A stretch of 64,000 bases of DNA. Origin: an uncultured Shimia sp. Lineage in GTDB: Bacteria; Pseudomonadota; Alphaproteobacteria; Rhodobacterales; Rhodobacteraceae. Of the stretch, positions 1-30,734 are shown one piece after another. Positions within the stretch are counted from its first letter, which is position 1. Each line of letters starts with the position of its first letter. Location of the stretch: contig NZ_CANLRL010000002.1 in NCBI RefSeq assembly GCF_947493595.1, positions 1-64,000 of the forward strand, in the 5' to 3' direction. Made by a program: the position numbers and the translations under genes. A model generated the notes under the pieces. The model did not search any database and was not told the DNA's origin. It was given only the letters and a program-made list of their open reading frames with translations.

Positions 1-443
1 CAACCCAGCCGCAAGCGCTTTTTTCAACTTTCTGCAAAAACACGCCAACTTTCTACAAAACTCAACAATATCAACACCCTAAACAGAACACCCCCGCAAC
101 CAAAAACAAGACAAACACACAATCACAGTAAACAAATCACCCACAACACTACTTATCCACAGACTCAGACCAGACTCACCAAAGACTCACACCGCAACAC
201 CCAAACAAGCGCCCAAATCCACGTCGGTAATACGTCGGTATCGCAACTGTATTACGGAGGTGCGGAAATACGGAAGAAACAAGGACCTTTCGGAAAGGTG
301 AAGGCTGCGGGCGGTGGGGGGAAGGCACCTGGAGGCTGGCGTAAGGCGATCAGTCAATTTGACCTCTCCTCCCCCTTAAGAGGCTTTTGTTTGACCACAG
401 AGCCATTAGTCTGCCCACGAACCCCGACCCAAAGGAACACACT
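1..443. other. A/C-rich, G-poor intergenic leader
   Basis: No convincing gene before the hydrolase at 444. The first 180 bases hold only about 14 G against about 65 C, an extreme strand asymmetry. A 9-base direct repeat ACGTCGGTA lies at 221-229 and 232-240. A small perfect hairpin (ACCTTT, loop CGG, AAAGGT) lies at 285-299. The function is unknown; it may be an untranslated leader or a structured single-strand region. Confidence 0.6.
153..161 (+). promoter_or_regulatory. Perfect DnaA-box sequence TTATCCACA
   Basis: The 9-mer equals the high-affinity DnaA box consensus and lies in the G-poor tract. It is a single copy, without the box cluster expected of an origin, so its role is uncertain. 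Confidence 0.3.
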
Positions 444-2108
444 TTGACCTGGCTGCGCCGATTGATCTTCCACTTCTCACTTCGCAGCTTCCTGCTTGGG
501 CTGTCGTTCTTTGCCGCCTCCATGACACCCTCACTCATCCCACGGGGCGCCACCGAACAGGGCATCCTTGGGGGGCTGCTCATTGCAATTGGGTATTTGC
601 TAGGGCAGTCCGTGAGCCTGACCTGGCAAGCCGCCGATTTGCCGCGCCTAACAGGACGGCTTGGCAAAGCCTTTGACGGGGTGCTCTCCCTTTGCGTGGT
701 CGCGCTGACCCTCTGGATCCTGATCTACAGTCTGGAATGGCAAAACGAACTGCGCGGCAAAATGGGCATGGACGTTGTGGAGGGGCGCCACCTGCTAAAG
801 CTGACGACGCTGACCACACTCACCTTTCTGTCGCTTTATGCAGTCGGGGCTTTTGTGGCGATGCTGTTCCATTGGGTGCGGGCCCGTTTTTATCGGATCA
901 TGCCACCGCGCCGGGCCAACGTCCTGGGGGTGCTCACGGTGGCAGCCATTCTGTTTGTGGTGACGCGCGACGGGATTTTTGATCGGGTCGTGGCGTCACT
1001 GGATCAGAGTTACGAGACCGCGCAGGAGTTGTTTGACGTGGCCCCGCCCCTGCCCCCCTTTGATTATCAATCTGGGTCAACAGTCTCGCTGATCGATTGG
1101 GCCGCAATGGGACAGCCGGGACGAGACTTTGTTTTGAGTGGGCCGGATGCCAAGGCGATCTCCAACTTCACCGGCAAACCCGCAAAAGAGCCACTGCGCG
1201 TTTACGTGGGGCGGGCAAATGGCGAGACCCCGCGGGAGCGTGCGGAATTGGCCTTGGCGGAATTGATCCGCGTCGACGCCTTTGAGCGAGACGTTCTCAT
1301 TGTCACCAGCCCAACCGGCACCGGCTGGATGGATCCGGGGTCTCATGATCCGGTGGAGTATATGCACAACGGCAACATCGCCACGGTGAGTGTGCAGTAT
1401 TCCTATTTGCAGTCGCCTCTGGCGCTGATCCTGGAAACCCGTACCGGGTTGGATCAGGCCACAGCGCTTTTGGAAGTGGTGCACGACTATTGGTCGGGTT
1501 TGCCAAAGGACAGCCGCCCTCGTCTGTATGCCCATGGGCTCAGCCTTGGGGCGTGGTCTTCGATGTATGCCACCAACCTGTTCCGCCTGCTGGATGATCC
1601 GATCAATGGGGCGTTTTGGGCCGGCCCACCTTTCCCCTCGCGATTCTGGCATAGCATTCAGATGGCACGCAACGCGGACAGCCCTTGGGTTCTGCCAGAG
1701 GTCGGGCGAGGCTCGCTGGTGCGTTATGCCAACCATGTTCATGATGCCTCTGACGCGCCGCGCGCGTGGGGGCAAATGCGGATTGCCTTTTTGCAGTATT
1801 CCAGCGATCCGATTGTGTTTTATGAACCGCGCTCTCTTTGGCGAGCGCCGCCGTGGATGAACGATCCTCCGGCGGAGGATGTCTCGCGGCACCTGGTGTT
1901 CATTCCCATTGTAACCCAGTTTCAATTGGCGCTTGATATGGCGCTGTCGTTTGGCGCACCTCCCGGCCATGGCCACGCCTATTATGCCCGCGATTATATT
2001 TCGCCTTGGGCCGAGGTCACCGCACCGGAGGGATGGACCCGCGAAGACACCAAGCGATTGCGCGCCCATTGTGACCTTGGGGTTGGGCTAGGCTGTCGCA
2101 ATGATTGA
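444..2108 (+). CDS. Membrane-anchored alpha/beta hydrolase family protein (Abhydrolase_9 type)
   Basis: Likely a membrane-associated serine hydrolase of unknown substrate. The N-terminal third has several hydrophobic segments and the family-typical TPSLIPR stretch. The C-terminal half is an alpha/beta hydrolase domain with nucleophile motif GLSLG (Ser about residue 367) and late acidic/His residues (GHGHAYY). I chose the TTG at 444 because AAAGGA sits about 6 bases upstream; an in-frame TTG at 387 would add 19 poorly conserved-looking residues. It stands alone and converges on msrQ. The match to the two-domain Abhydrolase_9_N/Abhydrolase_9 architecture is from memory of the family; the substrate cannot be read from the sequence. 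Confidence 0.75.
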   Translation: MTWLRRLIFHFSLRSFLLGLSFFAASMTPSLIPRGATEQGILGGLLIAIGYLLGQSVSLTWQAADLPRLTGRLGKAFDGVLSLCVVALTLWILIYSLEWQNELRGKMGMDVVEGRHLLKLTTLTTLTFLSLYAVGAFVAMLFHWVRARFYRIMPPRRANVLGVLTVAAILFVVTRDGIFDRVVASLDQSYETAQELFDVAPPLPPFDYQSGSTVSLIDWAAMGQPGRDFVLSGPDAKAISNFTGKPAKEPLRVYVGRANGETPRERAELALAELIRVDAFERDVLIVTSPTGTGWMDPGSHDPVEYMHNGNIATVSVQYSYLQSPLALILETRTGLDQATALLEVVHDYWSGLPKDSRPRLYAHGLSLGAWSSMYATNLFRLLDDPINGAFWAGPPFPSRFWHSIQMARNADSPWVLPEVGRGSLVRYANHVHDASDAPRAWGQMRIAFLQYSSDPIVFYEPRSLWRAPPWMNDPPAEDVSRHLVFIPIVTQFQLALDMALSFGAPPGHGHAYYARDYISPWAEVTAPEGWTREDTKRLRAHCDLGVGLGCRND

Positions 2109-2136
2109 GGACACAGCCCTCTCGGCCACCTGACCT

Positions 2137-2754
2137 CTAGGCGACCTGACGTTTGGCCGGTTGCGCGGCGCGTTTTTTGGGCAATTTGCGGAACGCAATC
2201 AGGCCGATCACCACACCAAGGTAGATGTAAGGCTCATATTCAAAACCTTTGGTCTGCATGATGTAGTGCACACCGCCCAGCGCGACGGCGAGATAGGTCA
2301 GCTTGTGTAACTTACGCCAGCGCGGGCCAAGCTTACGGATCGACAGGTTGTTTGAAGTGATCGCTAAAGGCAGCAGGATTACCAAGGAGATCATGCCGAC
2401 AATGATGTAGGGGCGTTTGACGATGTCTGCCCAGACTTGCGAGAGTATCTGCACGTCCAGAACCATCCAGACCAGGAAGTGAAGCAGGATGTAGAAGAAA
2501 GAAATCACGCCCAGCGCCCGGCGCCAGCTCAGAAAGTTGAGCTTGGTGAACCGACGCAAGGGAGTGACCAGAAGGACCGCGATCAGCACCTGAAGGCCAA
2601 CTTTGCCCAGCGCGTGCTCCATGGCTTTCACAGGGTCCACACCCAAGCCGCCGGTAAAGCCCGCGTAAAGTAACCAAACCGGATAGGCTGCCCCGATCAG
2701 ATAGAGCAGCCAGTTGGGCGTTTTGCGCACGAGGGTGTTTACGGTGTCGATCAT
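2137..2754 (-). CDS. msrQ: Heme-binding membrane subunit MsrQ of the periplasmic methionine sulfoxide reductase
   Basis: MsrQ (YedZ family) is an inner-membrane b-heme protein that passes electrons from the respiratory chain to MsrP. The 205-residue protein has about six hydrophobic helices, with conserved histidines in YILLHFLVW and GGVHYIM typical of the ferric-reductase-like fold. The ATG at 2754 gives the usual length (MIDTVNTLVRK start); longer upstream starts would run into the preceding small gene. It is the last gene of msrP - small Cys-rich gene - msrQ, with only 2 bases between it and the small gene, so it is surely cotranscribed. Confidence 0.9.
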   Translation of the reverse strand: MIDTVNTLVRKTPNWLLYLIGAAYPVWLLYAGFTGGLGVDPVKAMEHALGKVGLQVLIAVLLVTPLRRFTKLNFLSWRRALGVISFFYILLHFLVWMVLDVQILSQVWADIVKRPYIIVGMISLVILLPLAITSNNLSIRKLGPRWRKLHKLTYLAVALGGVHYIMQTKGFEYEPYIYLGVVIGLIAFRKLPKKRAAQPAKRQVA

Positions 2755-2756
2755 CG

Positions 2757-2972
2757 TCAGCCTTTGCAGCAGTTTTCGCCCTGTTGGATCGGCGGGCAGG
2801 GCACATCGCCATAGGAACAAAAGACGCAACAATCCCCGGCCTTGGGGCGCAACACCACGCTGCAGCCCCGACACTCCAAAAAGTACTGACAGGCATCGGT
2901 GGGCATCTCAAATGCCTGAACATGTCCACAGGTTGGGCAAGTCAGAGTGGAGGTGAGGATGGCTGCGCGCAT
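2757..2972 (-). CDS. Small cysteine-rich GDCCxxC-motif protein
   Basis: A 71-residue protein with two zinc-ribbon-like pairs (CPTC near residue 12 and CRGC in the middle) and a C-terminal GDCCVFCSYG signature followed by CPPIQ. This resembles the conserved GDCCVxC small-protein family, some members of which are selenoproteins; here the position reads Cys. The function is unknown; the paired cysteines fit metal binding or thiol chemistry. The gene starts 4 bases after the msrP stop codon and ends 2 bases before the msrQ start, so it is made together with the methionine sulfoxide reductase system. The start at 2972 (MRAAILTS) is preferred over the in-frame codon at 3038, which would overlap msrP. 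Confidence 0.8.
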   Translation of the reverse strand: MRAAILTSTLTCPTCGHVQAFEMPTDACQYFLECRGCSVVLRPKAGDCCVFCSYGDVPCPPIQQGENCCKG

Positions 2973-2976
2973 GGTC

Positions 2977-3879
2977 TTAGTAGTTTTTGCGCAGGTCCAT
3001 GCCGTCGTAAAGGCCGGCGACCTCTTTCTCATAGCCATTGAACTTCAAGGTTGGGATGCGTTTGGCAAAGAAGCCGCCGCCAATCGGGCGCTCAGAAGCC
3101 TGTGACCAGCGGGGGTGGTCCACCTCCGGGTTCACGTTGGAATAGAAACCGTATTCACCGGGGATGGATTTGTTCCAGCTGGTGGGCGGCTCTTTGTCCG
3201 TCAGCGTGATGCGCACGATGGATTTGATCGACTTGAAGCCGTATTTCCATGGCACCACCAGACGGATCGGCGCGCCGTTTTGTTTGGGCACGTCTTTGCC
3301 GTAGATGCCTGTTGCCATCAGGGTGAGCGGGTGGTTGGCTTCGTCCAGGCGCAGGCCTTCGACATAGGGCCAATCCAGGAAAGGCGAGTTTTGGCCGATC
3401 ATCTCCTTTGGGCGGTAAAGCGTTTCAAAGGCTACATATTTAGCGGAGGATTGCACGCCCGCGAGGTCCAAGAGGTCTTTCAGTTCAAAACCGTTCCACG
3501 GCACCACCATCGACCAGGCCTCGACACAGCGGAAGCGGTAGATGCGCTCCTCAATGGTCATTTTGGAGAGGATGTCGCCAAGCGCGTAGTCGCCGGGGCG
3601 GTCGACCAGACCGTCGATCTTGATGCTCCAAGGCTTGGTGGTCAGGCGGTGGGCGTGTTTGGCGGGGTCTTCCTTTCCGGTGCCGAACTCATAGAAGTTA
3701 TTGTACTGCGTGATGACGTCAAAATCGGTCGGGGTGAGATCGGTGGCGGCCTGTGCTTTGGGCGCAAGGGCTGCGAGGCCGAGACCGGCCATGCCGGCCA
3801 TGACCTGGCGGCGGTTCAGATAGGCGGACTTCGGGGTCACGTCGTCATTTGTGAGGTCATTGGTCCAGCGGTGCGCCAT
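2977..3879 (-). CDS. msrP: Periplasmic methionine sulfoxide reductase catalytic subunit MsrP
   Basis: Molybdopterin enzyme that reduces methionine sulfoxide in exported proteins using electrons from MsrQ. The 300-residue protein has a Tat signal (NRRQVMAG, Arg23-Arg24, then a hydrophobic stretch ending AQA), then the sulfite-oxidase-type Mo cofactor domain with the Mo-ligand cysteine in [11 protein letters not shown] (Cys118). [13 protein letters not shown] is another conserved family segment. The length is standard for the family. First gene of the three-gene msr operon. Its upstream region on the left-running strand is 3880-4054 and holds a G-rich hairpin repeat. Confidence 0.95.
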
Positions 3880-3998
3880 GTGGGGTCTCTCCTATTGCGT
3901 TGAGATCGTGATAGCGCAGGTGTGATACGTGACGCCACACACAGGGGCTCACGATGGTGTGCGGCGATTGTAACGTTTGGCCCGCGTGGGGGGGGAGG

Positions 3999-4050
3999 CG
4001 TGGGGGCCAGCCCCCACACCCCCGGGATATTTTTGGCCAAATGAAGAAAA
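3999..4050. repeat. Intergenic hairpin plus GGGATATTT repeat
   Basis: A perfect hairpin GTGGGGG / CCCCCAC (4000-4006, 4011-4017) is followed by CCCGGGATATTTTTGGCC and then CAAATGAAGA. The core GGGATATTT recurs at 44740-44748 and, inverted, near 39630. It lies between the glutamate synthase-like gene and msrP and may serve as a transcription end for the former. Confidence 0.5.
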
Positions 4051-4054
4051 GACG

Positions 4055-5551
4055 TTACATCGCGCCGGGGCGGGGGAAGACTTCGTTCATCGGCACGGAG
4101 CGGCCATTGGGTTGGACGAGGCGCACGTGGCGGCGGCGAAGTTTACGGGGCTCGGACACGCCGACGGAGTGGGCGATGACCTCGACCTCTTTCACCAGCG
4201 CCTGGGCATAACGCGCCACGCGGGGAGCTTTGCGGTCCACAACCAGGCCTTTTTGGAAACGCGGATCGTGGGTGGTGATGCCGGTGGGGCAGGTGTTTTT
4301 GTTGCATTTGAGCGCCTGGATGCAGCCCAGCGCAAACATGAAGCCACGGGCGGAAACCACGAAGTCTGCTCCAGCGGCAAGTGCCCAAGCGATGTCGCCG
4401 GGATTGACCAGCTTACCTGAGGCAATCAGACGGATCCGGTTGTGCAGTTCAAACTCGTCACGCAGATCTGCGACCAGAGGCAGCGCCTCACGCACAGGCA
4501 TGCCCACCAAGTCCATGAGCGGCATGGGCGCCGCGCCGGTGCCACCTTCGCCGCCGTCAATGGTGATAAAATCCGGGGCCATGTCAGCACCACGGCGCGA
4601 GATGGTTTCAAACAGTTCACGCATGGTGCTTTCTGCGCCAACCACGGTTTTGATGCCCACGGGTTTGCCGGTGACACCGCGGATATGGGCGAGGAAGTCC
4701 AAGAGGTGGTCAAAGTTGTCGATCTCGCGGTGACGGTTGGGAGAGATGCCATCCTGACCCACCTGAAGCCCGCGGATATTGGCAATCTCTTCGGTGACTT
4801 TTTCACCCGGAAGGATGCCGCCTTTGCCGGGCTTGGCCCCTTGGGCCATTTTCACCTCGAACATGCGGATACTGTCATGGCTGGCAATTTCACGTAGTTT
4901 GTCATCATCCAGCCCACCCTCTGCATTGCGCACGCCAAATTTGGCGGTGCCAATTTGGTAAACCAGATCACAGCCGCCCTCGTAGTGGAACGGGCTGACG
5001 CCACCCTCACCCGTGTTGAGCCACACACCCGCCTGCGCCGCGCCATGGCTAAGTGCCTGCACTGCCGGTTTGGACAAGGCGCCGTAGCTCATGCCGGAGA
5101 TGTTGAAAAACGAGGGTGCCAGATAGGGTGTGCGAGTGGTGGGGCCAATCAACAGCGGCTCAGATTTGGCATATTCGTCGTCCAGCGGCGGGAACGGGTC
5201 ATTCACAAAAATTGGTGTGCCCGGCACATTGAGATTGCGGGTGGAACCAAAAGCAATGGTGTTGGATTTGCCCGCCCCTGCCCGGCCAACCCATTCGCGT
5301 TGGGCGCGGTTGAACGGCAGCTCCTCACGGTCCATGGCGAAGAAGTACTGACGAAAGAACTCGCCCAGTTCCGAGAAAATGTGGCGGAAGCGGCCAATGA
5401 CCGGATAGTTGCGCCGGATGGCATCTTCGGTCTGTCTGCGGTCGATGACAAAGAGAACACAGGCGACCACCACCAAGAGCGCAAAGATCAGCACAAACGT
5501 CAGACCAAGGAACTCCACCACATCAAAGGCTGTTTCCATTGTGCTTTCCAT
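4055..5551 (-). CDS. FMN-binding glutamate synthase-family protein, membrane-anchored
   Basis: Contains the glutamate synthase large-subunit synthase domain (FMN barrel) without amidotransferase domain. One hydrophobic helix at about residues 12-38 anchors it, followed by the barrel with SGMSYGALS, GEGG, DGGEGGTGAAP and SARGFMFALGCIQALKC. The cysteine run CIQALKCNKNTCPTG matches the 3Fe-4S ligand pattern of glutamate synthases. 498 residues is usual for these stand-alone forms, often annotated as glutamate synthase family or GltB2. No small-subunit gene adjoins it, so the electron donor and the true reaction are open. ATGs at 5551 and 5539 are both possible starts. Confidence 0.85.
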   Translation of the reverse strand: MESTMETAFDVVEFLGLTFVLIFALLVVVACVLFVIDRRQTEDAIRRNYPVIGRFRHIFSELGEFFRQYFFAMDREELPFNRAQREWVGRAGAGKSNTIAFGSTRNLNVPGTPIFVNDPFPPLDDEYAKSEPLLIGPTTRTPYLAPSFFNISGMSYGALSKPAVQALSHGAAQAGVWLNTGEGGVSPFHYEGGCDLVYQIGTAKFGVRNAEGGLDDDKLREIASHDSIRMFEVKMAQGAKPGKGGILPGEKVTEEIANIRGLQVGQDGISPNRHREIDNFDHLLDFLAHIRGVTGKPVGIKTVVGAESTMRELFETISRRGADMAPDFITIDGGEGGTGAAPMPLMDLVGMPVREALPLVADLRDEFELHNRIRLIASGKLVNPGDIAWALAAGADFVVSARGFMFALGCIQALKCNKNTCPTGITTHDPRFQKGLVVDRKAPRVARYAQALVKEVEVIAHSVGVSEPRKLRRRHVRLVQPNGRSVPMNEVFPRPGAM

Positions 5552-5610
5552 GACTGGCTCCCTTCTGGCGCGTTGGGCTTAAAGTGGAGCGTCCAAGTGA
5601 GAAGGGCAAG

Positions 5611-6010
5611 TCACGAATGGGCAACAGCTGCATGAGGGAGGTGCAACAATTTCGGGAGCTTGGCCATGTCGTCAAACAAGGCGTCACAGATTGGCGCAAG
5701 GCGGATCGGATCGGTATCAGCGACATAGCCAAATGTGCGCGTGCCAGCGGCTTTTCCAGCTTTGGCTCCTGACGGGTTGTCCTCGACCACGACACATCGC
5801 GCCGGTGCGGTATTGGCCAGTTTGGCAGCATGCAGATACACATCCGGTGCAGGCTTAGGCGCAGGCACATCTTCGAGGGAGTAAATACCGCCAGCAAAGC
5901 GTTCCATGAGACCGCACGCCAGCCATGGTGCCACCTACAAAGAGGGCGGCGATTTTCTCCGATGGCAACGAAAGGCCGCCTGTAGCGAGGTTTTCCTGAA
6001 AACGCCCACT
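5611..6010 (-). pseudogene. Remnant of a HAD-family phosphatase with an internal deletion
   Basis: Residues encoded by 5934-5611 match the C-terminal half of a HAD hydrolase of the phosphoglycolate phosphatase type: IYSLEDVPAPKPAPDVYLHA, then VVVEDNPSGAKAGKAAG and CDALFDDMAKLP. Just upstream, in a different frame, 6003-5935 encodes an N-terminal HAD piece (ENLATGGLSLPSEKI, then LFVGGTMAGV). The two pieces abut without the roughly 60 residues that should join them, and the catalytic DxDGT start region is missing. A deletion plus frame change explains this. It is downstream of nothing obvious and upstream of the glutamate synthase-like gene. It should not yield an active enzyme. Confidence 0.75.
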
Positions 6011-6180
6011 CGAGTTTTTGGCTATCGCCGTTGTGAGACTTCGTAAACAAATGGGGTGTCACCCGTTCTCGATGGCTGTTCCTTCACATACATCCTTTAC
6101 TTTGCAAGACCCAGAGTGGCAGGCTAGCAAACATTAAACACAGGCGTCCCAACCAACTCTTCCAGATTTCAGGTGGCTCC

Positions 6181-6939
6181 ATGACAGCACGGAATGCGAC
6201 ACTTCGGACGAACCGGCTAGGTGTGCTGGCTTTGATGCTCTTTTGCTGCCAAAGTCTGACTGCCCAAGAAAACGCGTCTAATCCACTTGCAGCTGTCAAC
6301 AACACAGACCTGCGATTCAAATCTCTTGACCTGGGCAAGGGAGCAGACAAACAGGATGCCTACGTTGACGGCGCCTACATGCTGCGCCCTGATCTAAAAC
6401 TGAAATATGAATTGCACTACAATTCAACAAACGCGTCAGGATCCCGCGAAACCAGCTTTGAAAAAGTTGGCGTCAAAGCGATTTACTTTCCAAGCGAGAG
6501 AAAGCTCAATGAAACTTGGGGGATGCGCACGGCGGTGGGACTGGAGTGGATCTATGACCTCGGTGAAGCGGGCACCGGAATTGGCCCCGGCGCAGATCAA
6601 TTGGCACCTTTCGCAGGGGTCGCTTTGGCCAATTTGAACACCGGCCTAACACTAATTCCGCTGGTTCAGCACTTTGCGTCCTACAATGGCAGCACAGATA
6701 TAAGCCAAACCTCCGCGCGCCTGATTGCATTACAACCTTTTGCTGACACATGGTGGATCAAGGCCGATCTAAAGCTTCCCTACAATTGGGAAAACGAGAC
6801 ATGGCCAGCCTCGGCAGAGGTGCAGCTGGGCAAAAATCTCAGTGACGGCGTGGCCCTTTATGGGGATGTGTTGGTTGGGCTGGGCAAAGACCGCACATTT
6901 GACAAGGGCATCGGCGTGGGCTTGCGCTTCAAGTATTAA
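6181..6939 (+). CDS. Probable outer-membrane beta-barrel protein of unknown function
   Basis: The 252-residue product starts with a signal peptide (hydrophobic core LGVLALMLFC, cleavage likely after SLTAQ). It continues with alternating polar/aromatic strands (LKLKYELHYN, GMRTAVGLEWIYDL, TWWIKADLKLPYNW, GVALYGDVLVGLG) and ends in the aromatic RFKY. This pattern fits an outer-membrane barrel that ends in a C-terminal aromatic residue. I do not recognise a specific family; phenol-pathway MetA-like transporters are a loose comparison. It is a single-gene unit followed by a strong hairpin. Confidence 0.6.
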   Translation: MTARNATLRTNRLGVLALMLFCCQSLTAQENASNPLAAVNNTDLRFKSLDLGKGADKQDAYVDGAYMLRPDLKLKYELHYNSTNASGSRETSFEKVGVKAIYFPSERKLNETWGMRTAVGLEWIYDLGEAGTGIGPGADQLAPFAGVALANLNTGLTLIPLVQHFASYNGSTDISQTSARLIALQPFADTWWIKADLKLPYNWENETWPASAEVQLGKNLSDGVALYGDVLVGLGKDRTFDKGIGVGLRFKY

Positions 6940-9640: not shown

Positions 9641-9798
9641 GGCTATCTCTCCTTCTTGTAAGCGCCCGGTTCAGATGTGGCGCCCGCTTTGCGGCACGCC
9701 TCGATTGTGGGCCTCAAGCATGATGTGGGCAACAGCGCGAAATGAATCAAGATGTCACGGCTGGAAAATCGAGTGCTTTTGAAGGGTTGCTCAGGTCA

Positions 9799-25785: not shown

Positions 25786-27696
25786 ATGGAGCGAGCCGCA
25801 GCCACCCAGGCCATGACCGTTGCCGGTCTGAACCTGATCAAACAGGCGATGTCGATTTACGACAGCGATCTGAAACTGGTGGTGGCCAATGCCCGCTTTC
25901 GCGAAATGTTTTCCATTCCGCGCGTGCTGTCCCAACCGGGGGCACCGTTTTCAGAAACCATCCGCTTTCTGATTGAGAACGGCGAATATGGCGATGTACG
26001 TGATGAAGACAAAGAGGCCTTCATCAAAGAGCGCGTCGACCGTGCCTTAAATTTTGAAGCGCATTACTTTGAGCGCAAACGGGCAGACGGCCGCTGGGTC
26101 TCTGTCGAAGGCTCGCCCCTGCCCGAAGGCGGCTGGGTGGCGGTCTACACCGATATCACCTCCACCAAACGACAAGAGGCGTTGCTGCGCTCCCGTTCTG
26201 AGGAGCTGTCGGATCAGTTGCTGCAATACGCCGAGGAACTGTCCGCCACCAACCGCGAGTTGGAGGCCACGGTACAGACACTGGAAGAAGTGAAGCGCCA
26301 GCTGATGGACAGCGAGGCACGGATGCGGCTGACAGCAGAAATGATGCCGGCTCATATCGCGCACGTGGGACCAGATCGGCTTTACACCTATTCGAACCGC
26401 CGCCTGAGTGCGGTGATCCCGGGGCGTCCGTCAGACATTGTCGGTATGCACGCCAGTGAAGCCTTGGGGGACGACGCCTACAGCCATATCAAGCCACATA
26501 TGGACAAGGCCTTCAGAGGCGAACCGTCGGTGTTTGAGTTTAACGAACACCCCAGCACACGGCGCATTCGCGCGGCATTTACACCAGATGACAACGAGGG
26601 CGCTGCCCGTGGCGTCTACGTGTTGTCGATGGACGTGACCGAAGAAACCCAAGCCCGAGTGGCTTTGCAGCAAACCCGGCGCCGGGAAATTGCCGCACAG
26701 ATGACCAGCGGCCTGGCACATGATTTTTCCAACCTGCTGACGATTATTTTAGGCACACAAAGTCGGCTGCAAAAAATGAACCTGCCTGAAGACGCCAGCG
26801 CATTGATCGAAGCGACCTTGGGTGCAGCACGGCGCGGCGGTACATTGCTGGACAACCTCGCCAATGTAACCGGGCCTCGGGTCCCCAAACTGGCGCCAAC
26901 AGACATGACCAGCTTCCTGTCCGAGCTGGAAACCTTGGCGCAGCCGACGGTTGGGGAAGAGGTTGCGCTGATCATTGAGAACAGCATTCCAGACGGCGCG
27001 GTGTTGCTCGATCCGGCGATGTTACACGACTCGCTGGTGAACCTGTTGTTGAACGCGGCCCATGCCTGCGGTCAGGGCGGCACCATCCTGTTGATCGCCG
27101 AGCTGATGCAGAACACCTGGGTGCAGTTCACTGTACGTGACACCGGTCCGGGGTTCTCAGACGCGGCGCTGGAACATGCGCTTGATCCGTTCTTTACCAC
27201 CAAAGGCGCAGATGGCTCCGGCCTGGGTTTGGCGATGGTCTATGACATGACCAAGCTGGTGGGTGGCGACATCAAAGTGACCAACACCGAGACCGGAGGG
27301 CAGGTGGTGCTGCGCTTGCCGCTGCGGCGTGCGGTACAGGATTCCACCCCCGGCTTGGCACTGCTGGTCGAGGACAACCCGGACCTGCGCGGGCTGATCC
27401 GCGATATGCTGACCGACATGAAGCACACGGTGATCGAGGCCGCCAGCGTCGACGAAGCTCGCGTGTTGCTGGATCAGGTGCCGGATATCACACTGGTGCT
27501 GTCTGATATTTCACTGGAGGGCGACGCCACCGGCGTGGACCTGATCCGCGAATTGGGGCGCGACCGCGTGCCGACCTATCTGATGACCAGCTTGCCCCAG
27601 AGCCATGATCTCTATATCGAAGGCGCCGCGCGTGCGCCGGTGCTGCCCAAGCCCTTTACCGCTGCGCAGCTTGACCAGTTTCTGCATCCGAAGTGA
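25786..27696 (+). CDS. PAS hybrid sensor histidine kinase with C-terminal receiver
   Basis: A cytoplasmic sensor of 636 residues without membrane helices. PAS domain at about 15-130, coiled coil at 130-178, second PAS at 180-290, HisKA-type phosphoacceptor in TSGLAHDFSNLL (His312), ATPase domain with NLLLNAAHA (Asn423), DTGPGF and GSGLGLAMV, then a receiver domain (about 524-636) with phosphoacceptor Asp574 in VLSDISLEG. It belongs to the group of kinases with H-D-F-x-N-L boxes. It is divergent from importer A and overlaps or abuts the OmpR-type regulator, its likely partner. The signal is unknown. Confidence 0.88.
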   Translation: MERAAATQAMTVAGLNLIKQAMSIYDSDLKLVVANARFREMFSIPRVLSQPGAPFSETIRFLIENGEYGDVRDEDKEAFIKERVDRALNFEAHYFERKRADGRWVSVEGSPLPEGGWVAVYTDITSTKRQEALLRSRSEELSDQLLQYAEELSATNRELEATVQTLEEVKRQLMDSEARMRLTAEMMPAHIAHVGPDRLYTYSNRRLSAVIPGRPSDIVGMHASEALGDDAYSHIKPHMDKAFRGEPSVFEFNEHPSTRRIRAAFTPDDNEGAARGVYVLSMDVTEETQARVALQQTRRREIAAQMTSGLAHDFSNLLTIILGTQSRLQKMNLPEDASALIEATLGAARRGGTLLDNLANVTGPRVPKLAPTDMTSFLSELETLAQPTVGEEVALIIENSIPDGAVLLDPAMLHDSLVNLLLNAAHACGQGGTILLIAELMQNTWVQFTVRDTGPGFSDAALEHALDPFFTTKGADGSGLGLAMVYDMTKLVGGDIKVTNTETGGQVVLRLPLRRAVQDSTPGLALLVEDNPDLRGLIRDMLTDMKHTVIEAASVDEARVLLDQVPDITLVLSDISLEGDATGVDLIRELGRDRVPTYLMTSLPQSHDLYIEGAARAPVLPKPFTAAQLDQFLHPK

Positions 27697-27704
27697 GCCC
27701 CGCC

Positions 27705-28409
27705 ATGACCGCCCCGCTTGTCACCATCCTGGACGATGAACCGGAAATCCGCATGATTTTGGCGGACGCTTTGGAAGACGCGGGCTTTCGCACCATGGCG
27801 TTTTCCCGCGCTACCGAATTTGAAGCGGCGCTCAAATCCACCACGCCGGATGTCTGTCTCGTGGACCTAGGATTGCCGGACAAAGACGGCTTGTCGCTGG
27901 TGCATCGCCTGGCGTTGGAGCTGGGCGCGGCGGTGATCATCATTTCGGGCCGCGCGCAAGTGCAGGACCGGATCACCGGGCTGGAGCTGGGCGCGGATGA
28001 CTACATCATCAAGCCGTTTGACCCGACCGAAGTGGTGGCACGCGTTCGCGCGCGGCTACGCAAAGAAAAAACCGTCGCGCCGGTGGCCGCCAACACCGCC
28101 GTGTTCAACGGCTGGACCGCCTTTTTTGACCGCTACGTGCTGGTGGATGAAAATGGTGCTGAAACCACCTTCAGCCATGCGGAAGGCGAAGTCCTTCGGC
28201 TGTTCTTAGACAGCCCCAAACGCTTGATCAGCCGCGCGCAGATGCAGGAGTCTTTGGGGGGCGCGGCTGGCGAAAGCTTTGACCGGGCCATGGATGTGCG
28301 GATTTCCCGCCTACGCACCAAGCTCAAGGAAGATCCAAAAAACCCGCGTCTTATCAAAACCATCTACGGCGCAGGCTATATCTTTTTGGGTGATGTGACC
28401 TGGCAGTAA
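27705..28409 (+). CDS. OmpR-family response regulator
   Basis: Receiver domain (1-120) with DDEPE, phosphoacceptor Asp54 in VDLGLPDKDG and Lys in IIKPFDP. The C-terminal winged helix (about 140-234) has RAMDVRISRLRTKLKEDP, then the IYGAGYIF end. The ATG at 27705 lies just after the kinase stop; a GTG at 27693 would overlap it. Tight linkage indicates one signalling unit. Position between two acid-import clusters suggests one of them as a target, which is inference only. Confidence 0.9.
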   Translation: MTAPLVTILDDEPEIRMILADALEDAGFRTMAFSRATEFEAALKSTTPDVCLVDLGLPDKDGLSLVHRLALELGAAVIIISGRAQVQDRITGLELGADDYIIKPFDPTEVVARVRARLRKEKTVAPVAANTAVFNGWTAFFDRYVLVDENGAETTFSHAEGEVLRLFLDSPKRLISRAQMQESLGGAAGESFDRAMDVRISRLRTKLKEDPKNPRLIKTIYGAGYIFLGDVTWQ

Positions 28410-28494
28410 CCCGCTGTATTTACACAGCAGCTGCAAAATCGACACAATATGTAGCCAAATGCCGCAAAATAAGGTATGTCTGTGGATAGGTGGT

Positions 28495-28670
28495 CGCCAG
28501 AGCGCCCAGGTTGAATCCTCCTTCCAACCTGTGTGGCGCGGGCACATCCACTCACGGAAGGGCCGCGGACTTTTTAGGGACAGGCGCGCGGTCTTTATGG
28601 GGACTGTGCAAGAACAAGTTCACTCCCGCCTTCCCCGCAGACCAGACCATCGGCTGCGGGGAATTTTTCT
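28495..28670 (+). ncRNA. Candidate structured small RNA with anti-Shine-Dalgarno loop
   Basis: The 452-base gap 28410-28861 has no good gene. Within it, a stem AGGTTG / CAACCT (28508-28513, 28525-28530) exposes an 11-base loop containing CCTCCTT, which equals the anti-Shine-Dalgarno end of 16S rRNA. The stem is embraced by GCGCC / GGCGC. A further CGCGG / CCGCG pairing follows, and the whole ends in a perfect 10-bp terminator hairpin. This fits a terminated regulatory RNA of about 170 nt. A 6S-type RNA is an alternative I could not confirm. The 5' end is a guess. Confidence 0.4.
28631..28668 (+). terminator. Intrinsic terminator of the candidate small RNA
   Basis: A perfect 10-bp stem TTCCCCGCAG / CTGCGGGGAA with a 13-base loop, directly followed by TTTTT on the plus strand. 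No protein gene ends nearby, which is the main reason to suspect an RNA gene. Confidence 0.85.
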
Positions 28671-28861
28671 GTATGCTCAGAAAACTGGACGCCCCTGCCA
28701 CAAACTGAAGGTGAGCTTCGCGCCCAGTGTGACGGATGGCTCGCGAGGTTTGTCTGACCGCTTTGCCCTTGTTGAAGTTAATGCACCCGTAGGACTATTC
28801 GGGCTGTGCCGCCTAATTCGGCTTTGCGCACAAGTCGAATTGAACTATCCATTCTGTCAGT

Positions 28862-29422
28862 ATGCGACGTCCAAATGCACTATATATCCTGACTGCGACA
28901 GCAGTAATGTTCTCGCTTTTTTTGGGACTTTTCCTATTAACGCGGACGGGTTTACCCACAGCTGATGTCGTTGCTCAGCAGGCAGCGAGCCGACCAATTA
29001 TCCAAGTTGACGCATTCAGTCCTGGTGACGTAGAGATCCTTTTGCTTAATAGCCGCAGGGTGGTTGTCTGGAGACGCAATGAGGCTGATAGGATCCTTGC
29101 AGCAAGCCAAAACGCACCAGAAGAATGGCAACATCACGATACAAGAATTCTCGGAAAGCCCAAGCCTGTCTTAGCGGATGACGCAAATTTGACGTTGAAC
29201 GAAGAATGGTTCTTTGCTTTGGCGGAGTTTTCCAACCCGTATCAATACCTGTTGCTGAGAGCAGGCGACTTTGAGGGCTTCTTCGAAGGACGGTATGCTA
29301 CCCACTTTGACTTAGCAGGGCGTGTCAGAAAAGGCCGCGGCAGTAAGAACCTTACCGTCATAGAAGCCGAGTATGTCGATGACGGGAAAGGCATACAGCT
29401 TTTTCTGAATGGAAAACCTTGA
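28862..29422 (+). CDS. Membrane-anchored Rieske-fold-like protein lacking all iron-sulfur ligands
   Basis: A 186-residue protein with one N-terminal membrane helix (about 7-26) and a periplasmic domain. By eye it follows the Rieske subunit of the bc1 complex (PetA): the hinge PTADVVAQQA, strand VVVWRRNEAD (PetA IFIRRRTEAD), EEWFFAL (PetA EWLVMW), GDFEGFF and HFDLAGRVRKG (PetA HYDSAGRIRKG). Yet box 1 CTHLGC is FSNPYQ (123-128) and box 2 CPCHGSH is EGRYATH (142-148). The protein contains no cysteine at all, so it cannot bind a 2Fe-2S cluster. It is intact and in frame with normal composition, so it looks like a repurposed paralog rather than a wreck. The resemblance is from memory of PetA sequences. 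No ribosome site is obvious before ATG 28862. Function unknown. Confidence 0.65.
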   Translation: MRRPNALYILTATAVMFSLFLGLFLLTRTGLPTADVVAQQAASRPIIQVDAFSPGDVEILLLNSRRVVVWRRNEADRILAASQNAPEEWQHHDTRILGKPKPVLADDANLTLNEEWFFALAEFSNPYQYLLLRAGDFEGFFEGRYATHFDLAGRVRKGRGSKNLTVIEAEYVDDGKGIQLFLNGKP

Positions 29423-29527
29423 AGCCAAAATTCACGTACAGGTAGCGAATTGGTTCTTCGTCCACTCACCGTAAATGTGCGCCCTGGCTATGTAAAGCTT
29501 TGGCCATGTGGGCAAAAGCTGACATGC

Positions 29528-29561
29528 AAAAAGGCTCCCGAAAACCTCCGGGAGCCTTTTT
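29528..29561. terminator. Bidirectional intrinsic terminator
   Basis: Stem AAAAAGGCTCCCG / CGGGAGCCTTTTT with an eight-base loop gives a T-run in both directions. It lies 18 bases after the stop of the importer B binding protein and also downstream of the Rieske-like gene. Confidence 0.9.
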
Positions 29562-29579
29562 ATCTTGCTGACAGACGCC

Positions 29580-30734
29580 TTACTTCACAGCAACCGTCTT
29601 CCAACCGCCGTTTTCCACCACAGAAATCACCACGTCATCCGCGCCGCGGTGGTCGTCAGCACCATAGGTGGTCTGCGAGCCGGTGAGCTCGTCCATATAG
29701 TCCAGCGTCTCCATGGCGGCGATGAAGCCTTCGTGGGTCAGCTCAGGACCGGCGGCCTCCAAGGCACGCACCAGCGTGTCCGCTGCGGAGTAACCCAGCA
29801 TGGCAAAACCGGACGCAGGCTGATCAAACTTGGCTTTGTAATCGGCAATGAACTTACCCGGCACCGGATCCGCTGCCCGTGCATAAAGATCCTGCCAGCC
29901 GGATGCGGCATACAAACCATCGGTCACACCGCCCGGCACCATCGCCACCGGCTCCAAGAAGCCTGCGGAGGTGTTGAGGAATTTCACATCGGTCCAGCCC
30001 AGTTTCTTGGCGGAGCCCACCACGGTGATACCCTGACGCACGCCAAGCGCCATGGTGATCACATCACACCCGGCGGCTTTGTGTTTGCCAAGAGAGCCAA
30101 CAAAATCCAACTCATCCGGCTTGTGTGTGGTTTCGCTGGCCATGGTCAGGCCCATGCTCTCCGCAAGGTCTTTGGTGGACTCGGCAATCTCTTTGCCAAA
30201 GTCAGACGGGATATACATGGTGCAGAGGTTTTTGGCCTCAAACTCTTCCGCAAGGTATTTCGCGCCAACCTGCACTTGGTCGTAGTAGCTTGAGAACCCA
30301 ATGAATTTATTGTCCATCGGCTCCTGCAGCATCTGCCGCGCTGCCGAGAGCGGGCCGACATTTGGAATGCCTTTGGGATCGAGCAGTTTGAAGCCTGCCA
30401 CGTTCATAGGCGTGCCCAAAGACAAAAGCATGGCAAAGGCTTTGTCGCGGTTCAGAAGCTTGTTGTAGCCCTGCATCGCGCGCGGGATCTGGTAGCCGTT
30501 GTCCTCCACAACAAACCGGATCTGACGCCCGTGCACTCCTCCGGCGGCATTCACCTCGTCAAAGCGCATGTTGGCGCCGTTGACCGCCGGAACGCCCACC
30601 GCAGCAAAGATGCCGGACAGATCGTTTACGGACCCAATCACCACCTCGCCATCGCTCACGCCTTGCGTGTCCGCAGCGACCTGGGAAGCCAGCGCCGCCG
30701 CGCCAACTGCCATTGCAGTCGTCAGTTTCTTCAT
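29580..30734 (-). CDS. Periplasmic substrate-binding protein of importer B
   Basis: A HAAT-type binding protein of 384 residues. Signal peptide MKKLTTAMAVGAAALASQVA, then VVIGSVNDLSGIFAAVGVPAVNGANMRFDEVN, typical of the Peripla_BP_6 fold, and MLGYSAADTLVRALEAAG near the end. It has no close relationship to the importer A binding protein by eye. Last gene of the importer B operon, after the ligase, with a 7-bp hairpin in the 47-base gap and a strong terminator behind it. Confidence 0.9.
   Translation of the reverse strand: MKKLTTAMAVGAAALASQVAADTQGVSDGEVVIGSVNDLSGIFAAVGVPAVNGANMRFDEVNAAGGVHGRQIRFVVEDNGYQIPRAMQGYNKLLNRDKAFAMLLSLGTPMNVAGFKLLDPKGIPNVGPLSAARQMLQEPMDNKFIGFSSYYDQVQVGAKYLAEEFEAKNLCTMYIPSDFGKEIAESTKDLAESMGLTMASETTHKPDELDFVGSLGKHKAAGCDVITMALGVRQGITVVGSAKKLGWTDVKFLNTSAGFLEPVAMVPGGVTDGLYAASGWQDLYARAADPVPGKFIADYKAKFDQPASGFAMLGYSAADTLVRALEAAGPELTHEGFIAAMETLDYMDELTGSQTTYGADDHRGADDVVISVVENGGWKTVAVK

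Follow-up and report, generated by a model that had tools for sequence, protein, structure and literature searches.

A cysteine-free paralogue of the bc1 Rieske protein in Rhodobacteraceae and its possible role at the bc1 complex

What can a Rieske protein do once every ligand of its cluster has been replaced? The question is raised by one gene in the window, by which we mean the whole stretch of DNA analysed here, 64,000 nucleotides from an uncultured Shimia sp. The preliminary description of this stretch had taken the gene for an intact, repurposed paralogue of the bc1 Rieske subunit (PetA). We call the family to which it belongs NL-A.

Results

The window gene and its protein

The reading frame was intact as described, and the translation bore out the absence of cysteine. 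The gene and the parts of its protein are as follows.

28862..29422, + strand: NL-A pseudo-Rieske coding sequence; frame open, ATG start, 186 amino acids, no cysteine
28874..28948, + strand: N-terminal helix (residues 5–29), the membrane anchor of the Rieske fold, from the AF2 model and alignment with full-length bc1 Rieske chains
28955..28975, + strand: hinge or neck P-T-A-D-V-V-A (residues 32–38), retained from PetA, from the majority-residue alignment
29228..29248, + strand: former cluster box 1, FSNPYQY (residues 123–129); ligand Cys, ligand His and disulfide Cys all substituted
29285..29305, + strand: former cluster box 2, EGRYATH (residues 142–148); ligand Cys, ligand His and disulfide Cys substituted, the substitutes being conserved (E 48/49, Y 44/49, R 43/49)

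The claimed resemblance to the bc1 Rieske subunit over most of the length was confirmed by phmmer, whose best match among PDB sequences was the Rhodobacter sphaeroides subunit 2qjp_C (residues 5–175, E 2.4e-8); the bc1 Rieske subunits of Paracoccus and mitochondria were matched as well. Among profile models, TIGR01416 (NCBIfam) reached E 4.4e-4 and 20.3 bits, far under its cut-off of 97.4 bits, and a Pfam scan of the protein up to E 10 gave no match, PF07791 (Imm11) included. The Rieske Pfam model, searched against the window's own genome, did not recover the gene.

The structure predicted with AF2 is a Rieske fold, as the preliminary description had supposed, and aligns with full-length bc1 Rieske chains. 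That is, the fold of a functional bc1 Rieske protein, with its N-terminal membrane helix and hinge, is predicted to be present, and helix 5–29 may insert in the membrane; box 1 (C-x-H-x-G-C) and box 2 (C-x-C-H) are absent. In the alignment, the ligand columns C132, H134, C152 and H155 (numbering of the trimmed L007 row) hold F, N, E and Y, and the two disulfide cysteine columns hold Y and R, in agreement with the substitutions first reported. We regard it as close to certain that the protein is a paralogue derived from the bc1 Rieske subunit, without the cluster. The base composition, which had been called normal, is not: GC3 of the gene is 0.48 versus 0.71–0.73 in three flanking genes, and lies at 0.42–0.52 at the other seven NL-A loci.

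Conservation and selection within NL-A

A search of 5.8 billion proteins with the window protein as query returned 53 homologues at E <= 1e-3 (54 members with the window protein), 46 of which were aligned and are 50–91% identical to it; the Rieske resemblance is therefore not a matter of chance. Cysteine is absent altogether from 43 of the 53. Columns were counted over 49 rows, window included, five proteins (P0006, P0021, P0022, P0033 and P0053) being omitted for length. The ligands C, H, C and H have given way in most of these rows to F (44), N (33), E (48) and Y (44), and the disulfide cysteines to Y (38) and R (43). Ligand loss is thus common to the aligned family: neither cysteine column holds a cysteine and box 1 holds no histidine, with one stray histidine at a ligand column of box 2. 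Since the substitute residues are themselves conserved, the pattern speaks for selection on a new tip. Rows named to genus come from Shimia, Ruegeria, Actibacterium, Cochlodiniinecator and Pelagimonas. A Rieske protein is defined by its cluster, and the sequences do not support the names under which databases list some of these ligand-free proteins, 'Rieske (2Fe-2S) protein' and 'iron-sulfur subunit' (as in P0046 and P0012).

The dN/dS ratio was measurable in 7 of the 28 pairs formed by eight NL-A genes, the other pairs being saturated or nearly so. The six pairs that can be formed from the window gene, L037, L038 and L039 gave 0.15–0.31, and L040–L042 gave 0.22. No stop codons were found within the matches in four NL-A genomes, and the homologues did not prove to be random fragments with stops. 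A reading as pseudogene was rejected on these ratios in the measurable pairs together with the conserved substitutes.

A sister family and the origin of both

The window's genome encodes a second ligand-less Rieske paralogue, missed in the preliminary description, which represents a family that we call NL-B.

L006 1465-2040 = G000:C1:752401-752973, − strand: NL-B paralogue of the window's genome

Over all 69 NL-B rows the ligand columns hold N/D, G, D and Q/R, and the disulfide pair is kept (69/69 and 67/69). Fifteen NL-B rows entered the column comparisons and 60 (58 different) the Tat and linker tests. Named genera are Ruegeria, Tateyamaria, Roseobacter and Marinibacterium, plus one 'Hyphomicrobiales bacterium'. 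A divergent ligand-less relative (L012, G078:C22:31647-32195) has the disulfide pair and lacks the ADV hinge; it forms a long branch of unsure placement. The 69 NL-B rows include P0120, a close twin of L012. NL-B and a 178-amino-acid gene of no Pfam family adjoin an SLT-type transglycosylase gene in just two (G000 and G308) of 17 loci searched, of which 17 one was truncated.

Two trees were computed. The first, with boxes included, held 18 of 54 NL-A rows, 15 of 69 NL-B rows, L012, 21 canonical PetA and 13 PetA from other orders; for the second, the two box regions were removed, L012 was omitted and the 13 other-order PetA served as root. The 18 NL-A rows (99/98) and 15 NL-B rows (97/97) formed one clade (100/100), which was recovered with boxes included, L012 then falling within it. 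This clade joins Rhodobacteraceae PetA against PetA from other orders (98/100). Its nesting inside Rhodobacteraceae PetA has weak support (80/85), and it may possibly be sister to them instead; the NL branch is long (1.84 changes per column), which makes the attachment point unsure. The simplest history suggested by the sequences would be a single petA duplication with loss of all four ligands, followed by loss of the disulfide in NL-A. Canonical PetA, NL-B and NL-A then form a natural series on one fold: cluster and disulfide, disulfide only, and neither. All three members are present in the window's genome, which makes it a place to ask how a Rieske fold stays together once the cofactor is gone.

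Retained and lost positions

The scoring used the 100 PetA columns with at least 90% conservation, a column counting as kept if the NL majority residue matches. The 46 canonical comparison rows were fetched as best matches to the NL families, so the canonical set leans towards these. Of the 22 columns in the cluster loops and Pro loop NL-A keeps 2. It keeps more elsewhere in the head, with 24 of 48, and in the hinge, with 6 of 8 (Fisher p 0.001 against the loops in both cases). Of the membrane helix it retains 4 of 19 columns, and of the columns before the helix 1 of 3. Most small Gly/Ala positions of the PetA helix are gone, which, with so few helix residues kept, means that NL-A may not fit the Rieske slot. 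NL-B keeps 8/22 loop, 22/48 rest-of-head, 5/8 hinge, 6/19 membrane-helix and 0/3 pre-helix columns; its loss is not significantly selective (hinge versus loops p 0.24, rest of head versus loops p 0.60). The tip of the Rieske head is the part that contacts cytochrome b.

The hinge stands out in the alignment: its P, A, D, V and last A are each carried by the majority of rows in all three sets (canonical, NL-A, NL-B). In NL-A the linker is better conserved than the membrane helix (permutation p 0.012), which would be odd for a passive tether, and is not more conserved than the head (p 0.41). In NL-B it is not more conserved than the helix (p 0.91) or than the head. The Tat motif RRxF[LIV] was found in 45 of 46 canonical rows, in none of the 49 NL-A and in none of the 60 NL-B rows. 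A twin-arginine pair without the F occurs near the N-terminus in 23/49 NL-A and 4/60 NL-B rows; with the bare pair retained in some rows, Tat export may still occur.

Genomic sites and a variable slot

NL-A was found at eight different sites: that of the window (which is also that of L037), L038, L039, L040, L041, L042, L043 and L074, an IMG/VR contig. Seven of them, all but L074, were compared. Besides NL-A itself, the only matches across these sites were pairs at 27–39% identity, and a recurring operon partner was rejected for the seven, L038 contributing just 258 bases upstream. The window site is laid out as follows.

27693..28409, + strand: response regulator (Pfam Response_reg, Trans_reg_C), left flank of the slot; site backbone, outside the gene unit
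28410-29580, no strand: variable cargo slot between the response regulator and the LivK-type gene, from congener comparison
28633..28668, + strand: conserved hairpin (28633-28662) with T-run, resembling a terminator or the 3' end of a small RNA, at the left edge of the slot, from congener alignments
28749..28861, + strand: upstream stretch common to the window and the L038 NL-A, which lies at another genomic site; blastn match from −113
29423..29468, + strand: downstream stretch common to the window and the L039 NL-A, to about +46
29529..29562, no strand: inverted repeat and T-run where the downstream gene ends, forming the right edge of the slot, from sequence and congener alignment
29580..30734, − strand: LivK-type periplasmic binding protein (Pfam Peripla_BP_6), right flank of the slot

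About 113 bases upstream (with L038) and 46 downstream (with L039) are common to different sites, which suggests that the gene carries its own leader along when it moves. The upstream stretch probably carries a promoter; a consensus scan of it found no sigma-70-like site. At L040 of Actibacterium lipolyticum, a look-alike of a tRNA 3' end was seen by eye upstream of NL-A (about 9680-9710), where ARAGORN called none.

The slot had gone unnoticed before. Every one of the 25 genomes of the genus has the response regulator; the LivK-type gene is visible together with it in 9 of 25 fetched loci. Two of these nine slots hold NL-A (G000, the window's genome, and G313), five hold other reading frames without match to NL-A, and two are near-empty, with 306 and 376 bases between the flanking genes. 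Matched by coordinates, G313 is Rhodobacteraceae bacterium Alg238-R152 and G317 is Shimia thalassica, with which the search tool groups the window's genome in one genus. The G314 slot carries an Imm11 immunity gene (L056 2552-3214, − strand; Pfam, 38.7 bits versus a cut-off of 22.1), and two other slot frames had no Pfam match above cut-off. The hairpin region (28560-28668, folding z −2.47) is highly conserved after the response regulator in congeners and matches no Rfam family. The hairpin is present in congeners that lack NL-A and therefore belongs to the site. It is the candidate small RNA behind which the preliminary description had placed the gene; NL-A is a lone gene in this slot. The hairpin sequence recurs further downstream, after another reading frame, in L062 and L063, with a variant in L059.

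On L074, positions 398-6854 upstream of NL-A carry CAP12/TIR-like, HNH, PD-T4-7-like and Septu PtuA/PtuB genes; the CAP12/TIR-like gene falls just under its Pfam cut-off (24.6 versus 24.7 bits).

Distribution and the company of PetA

Among genomes sampled over the family, NL-A occurs in 4 of 295 and NL-B in 2 of 290 (G000 and G193), counts that derive from score gaps and from reading the best fetched loci. Each was found in 3 of the 25 genomes of the genus. A third strong match to NL-B, in G078, is the divergent L012. A class-level search covered 385 genomes, 154 of which had a match at E <= 1e-15, and 30 loci were fetched; the 79 best reading frames read, several loci repeating, comprised 71 with both boxes and 8 without both, and all 8 came from genomes of the window's family or genus. 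A distant ligand-less protein may lie among the weaker matches. NL-A is thus an accessory gene, absent from most genomes, a point that the preliminary description had not noticed, and bc1 can therefore do without it.

A PetA complete with both boxes was found in 10 of 10 tested genomes carrying NL-A, NL-B or L012, and a normal bc1 complex with which the protein could come into contact is therefore probably present. Co-occurrence with petABC had been proposed as a check; in the window's genome an intact canonical petA adjoins the cytochrome b gene. G193, which also has NL-B, carries a second PetA with both boxes (G193:C25:6554-7054, L165), 62% identical to the PetA of the window's genome. Cytochrome b was not found in any of the 8 fetched NL-A loci (11–21 kb each; L038 begins 258 bases before the gene), and at none of them is NL-A encoded with petB/petC.

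We also looked for both families on mobile elements. NL-A matched none of 50,697 phage records; it gave one weak plasmid match (Tistrella, 28% identity, 77% covered) and lies on one IMG/VR contig (L074), putatively viral. A reading as phage or plasmid gene was rejected on these results. NL-B had no match in viral contigs. One NL-B protein, P0054, matched 30 plasmid records annotated as petA, with at most 34.9% identity in the 20 listed, and a second NL-B protein had no plasmid match. The annotated plasmid genes come from Sulfitobacter, Roseovarius, Ruegeria and others, and are probably ordinary PetA.

Discussion

The idea of a repurposed, ligand-free Rieske-fold paralogue has stood up: the predicted fold, the clade of PetA ancestry, the conserved ligand loss, the purifying selection in measurable pairs and an intact PetA elsewhere in the genome all agree with it. 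As to function, the role first suggested for it, that of a structural, regulatory or decoy partner of a respiratory complex, is possible. Our preferred reading, to which we give a probability of roughly 0.4, is that the cysteine-free protein is a stand-in without redox activity, which binds to the normal bc1 complex of its host and modulates it. NL-A would be membrane-inserted, its head lying in the periplasm; having no cofactor to fold in the cytoplasm, it would no longer require Tat. Through the retained hinge it could still meet cytochrome b or c1. Unable to take an electron from quinol, it would, once in the complex, either hold or slow turnover or stabilise bc1, and so be a natural dominant-negative or stabilising subunit.

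Contact of such a stand-in with bc1 is favoured by the retained hinge and by the normal PetA that every tested genome encodes. Further points in its favour, as far as sequences can tell, are the near whole-length relation to the bc1 Rieske subunit, the placement with PetA (98/100), the selective loss of the loops and the disappearance of the Tat motif. Against it would count the helix (4/19 kept), the loss of the tip that touches cytochrome b, the non-significant pattern in NL-B and the lack of cytochrome b nearby. The altered helix, the lost tip and the accessory setting speak against NL-A simply replacing PetA in the Rieske slot; a scaffold or a decoy is then conceivable as well. A wider version, which we offer with some doubt, is that roseobacters trade a pseudo-Rieske protein, born once from petA, that docks on bc1 or acts as its decoy, as a transferable brake on respiration or a shield against a toxin or phage protein that attacks the Rieske subunit.

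An alternative with a smaller but real chance is that the Rieske fold was kept as a scaffold, a membrane-tethered periplasmic adaptor whose new conserved tip binds an unrelated partner, with no contact to bc1. The old cluster site, refilled with conserved residues (F 44/49, E 48/49, R 43/49, Y 44/49), fits this, as do the largely vanished helix residues of PetA and a lone gene at eight unlinked sites without cytochrome b near. A free scaffold, however, would not need the hinge P-x-A-D-V-x-A, whose majority residues persist in both families, and no recurring neighbour at the seven sites compared offers itself as the partner.

A little less likely than the scaffold is a role in immunity or defence, with NL-A as an orphan Rieske decoy that would absorb what is aimed at the real Rieske protein, be it a toxin, a phage product or an inhibitor. 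In that case the gene would hint at weapons against bc1 that are not yet known. The gene is patchy and accessory with deviating GC3 (0.48 versus 0.71–0.73 in the flanks), the same slot carries the Imm11 gene in G314, NL-A follows the Septu pair and the PD-T4-7-like and CAP12/TIR-like genes in L074, and an LmuA-like gene lies about 8 kb from it in L040. But among the neighbours scanned, defence-type genes showed up at just 2 of 8 sites. In a PADLOC scan of 14 neighbours from 5 sites, 4 congener slot genes and the NL-A copy of L074, this copy matched 0 families, and the SspA/DndA match near L039 is a class-V aminotransferase, presumably a SUF cysteine desulfurase.

That the tip binds a different cofactor or metal is very improbable: a conserved E142, a frequent N125 (33/49) and a kept H148 lie near the old site, but they are not known to form a metal-binding set, and NL-B differs widely at these positions (N/D, G, D, Q/R). 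A decaying petA copy heading for loss, to which lost catalytic residues, patchy presence and an in-frame deletion of about 20 residues in the G053 copy might point, is hardly credible given dN/dS of 0.15–0.31 in the 7 of 28 unsaturated pairs, matches free of stops in four genomes and the same substitutes across 49 rows.

Among known systems, the closest is the bc1 Rieske protein itself (PetA; TIGR01416, PF00355), with which NL-A shares near whole-length homology, the predicted fold, the N-terminal helix, the hinge and the head core. Unlike PetA, NL-A lacks the cluster ligands, the disulfide, the consensus Tat motif and a nearby cytochrome b, scores under the TIGR01416 cut-off and has no Pfam match. 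Among the matches listed from open-licence PMC papers, no title named a stand-alone ligand-free bc1 Rieske paralogue. The Imm11 gene (PF07791) of a congener occupies the same chromosomal slot, with no sequence or fold relation to NL-A shown.

Ligand loss has precedents. PMC10715153 describes a 'deranged' Rieske protein in Acidocella that is without three or four ligands and keeps its disulfide pair, its cytochrome b being deranged too, and suggests that this bc1 may persist for a structural role in stabilising Complex I. By that description the loss of ligands is shared, and the disulfide pair is kept as in NL-B; in contrast, NL-A and NL-B are extra paralogues beside a normal PetA (both boxes in 10/10 genomes), and NL-A has lost the disulfide pair as well. 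In the NirD of Bacillus bataviensis, the small subunit of assimilatory nitrite reductase, two cluster-ligand residues are substituted according to PMC3475470, versus all four ligands and the disulfide in NL-A.

Second Rieske genes are known from Rubrivivax, with exchangeable Rieske subunits (Ouchane 2005, as cited in PMC4013037), and from Mesorhizobium loti, with a further gene besides the usual one (PMC6256036); these are extra copies as here, and by their titles they are Rieske subunits or Fe/S proteins, not ligand-free ones. Yeast bc1 incorporates a Rieske protein that has no cluster (Graham and Trumpower 1991, as cited in PMC3119413), which, like the Rubrivivax case, is a precedent for the stand-in reading. 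Finally, the helix of subunit IV in R. sphaeroides lies across the Rieske and cytochrome c1 helices (PMC10041115), which indicates that accessory partners of the Rieske helix exist.
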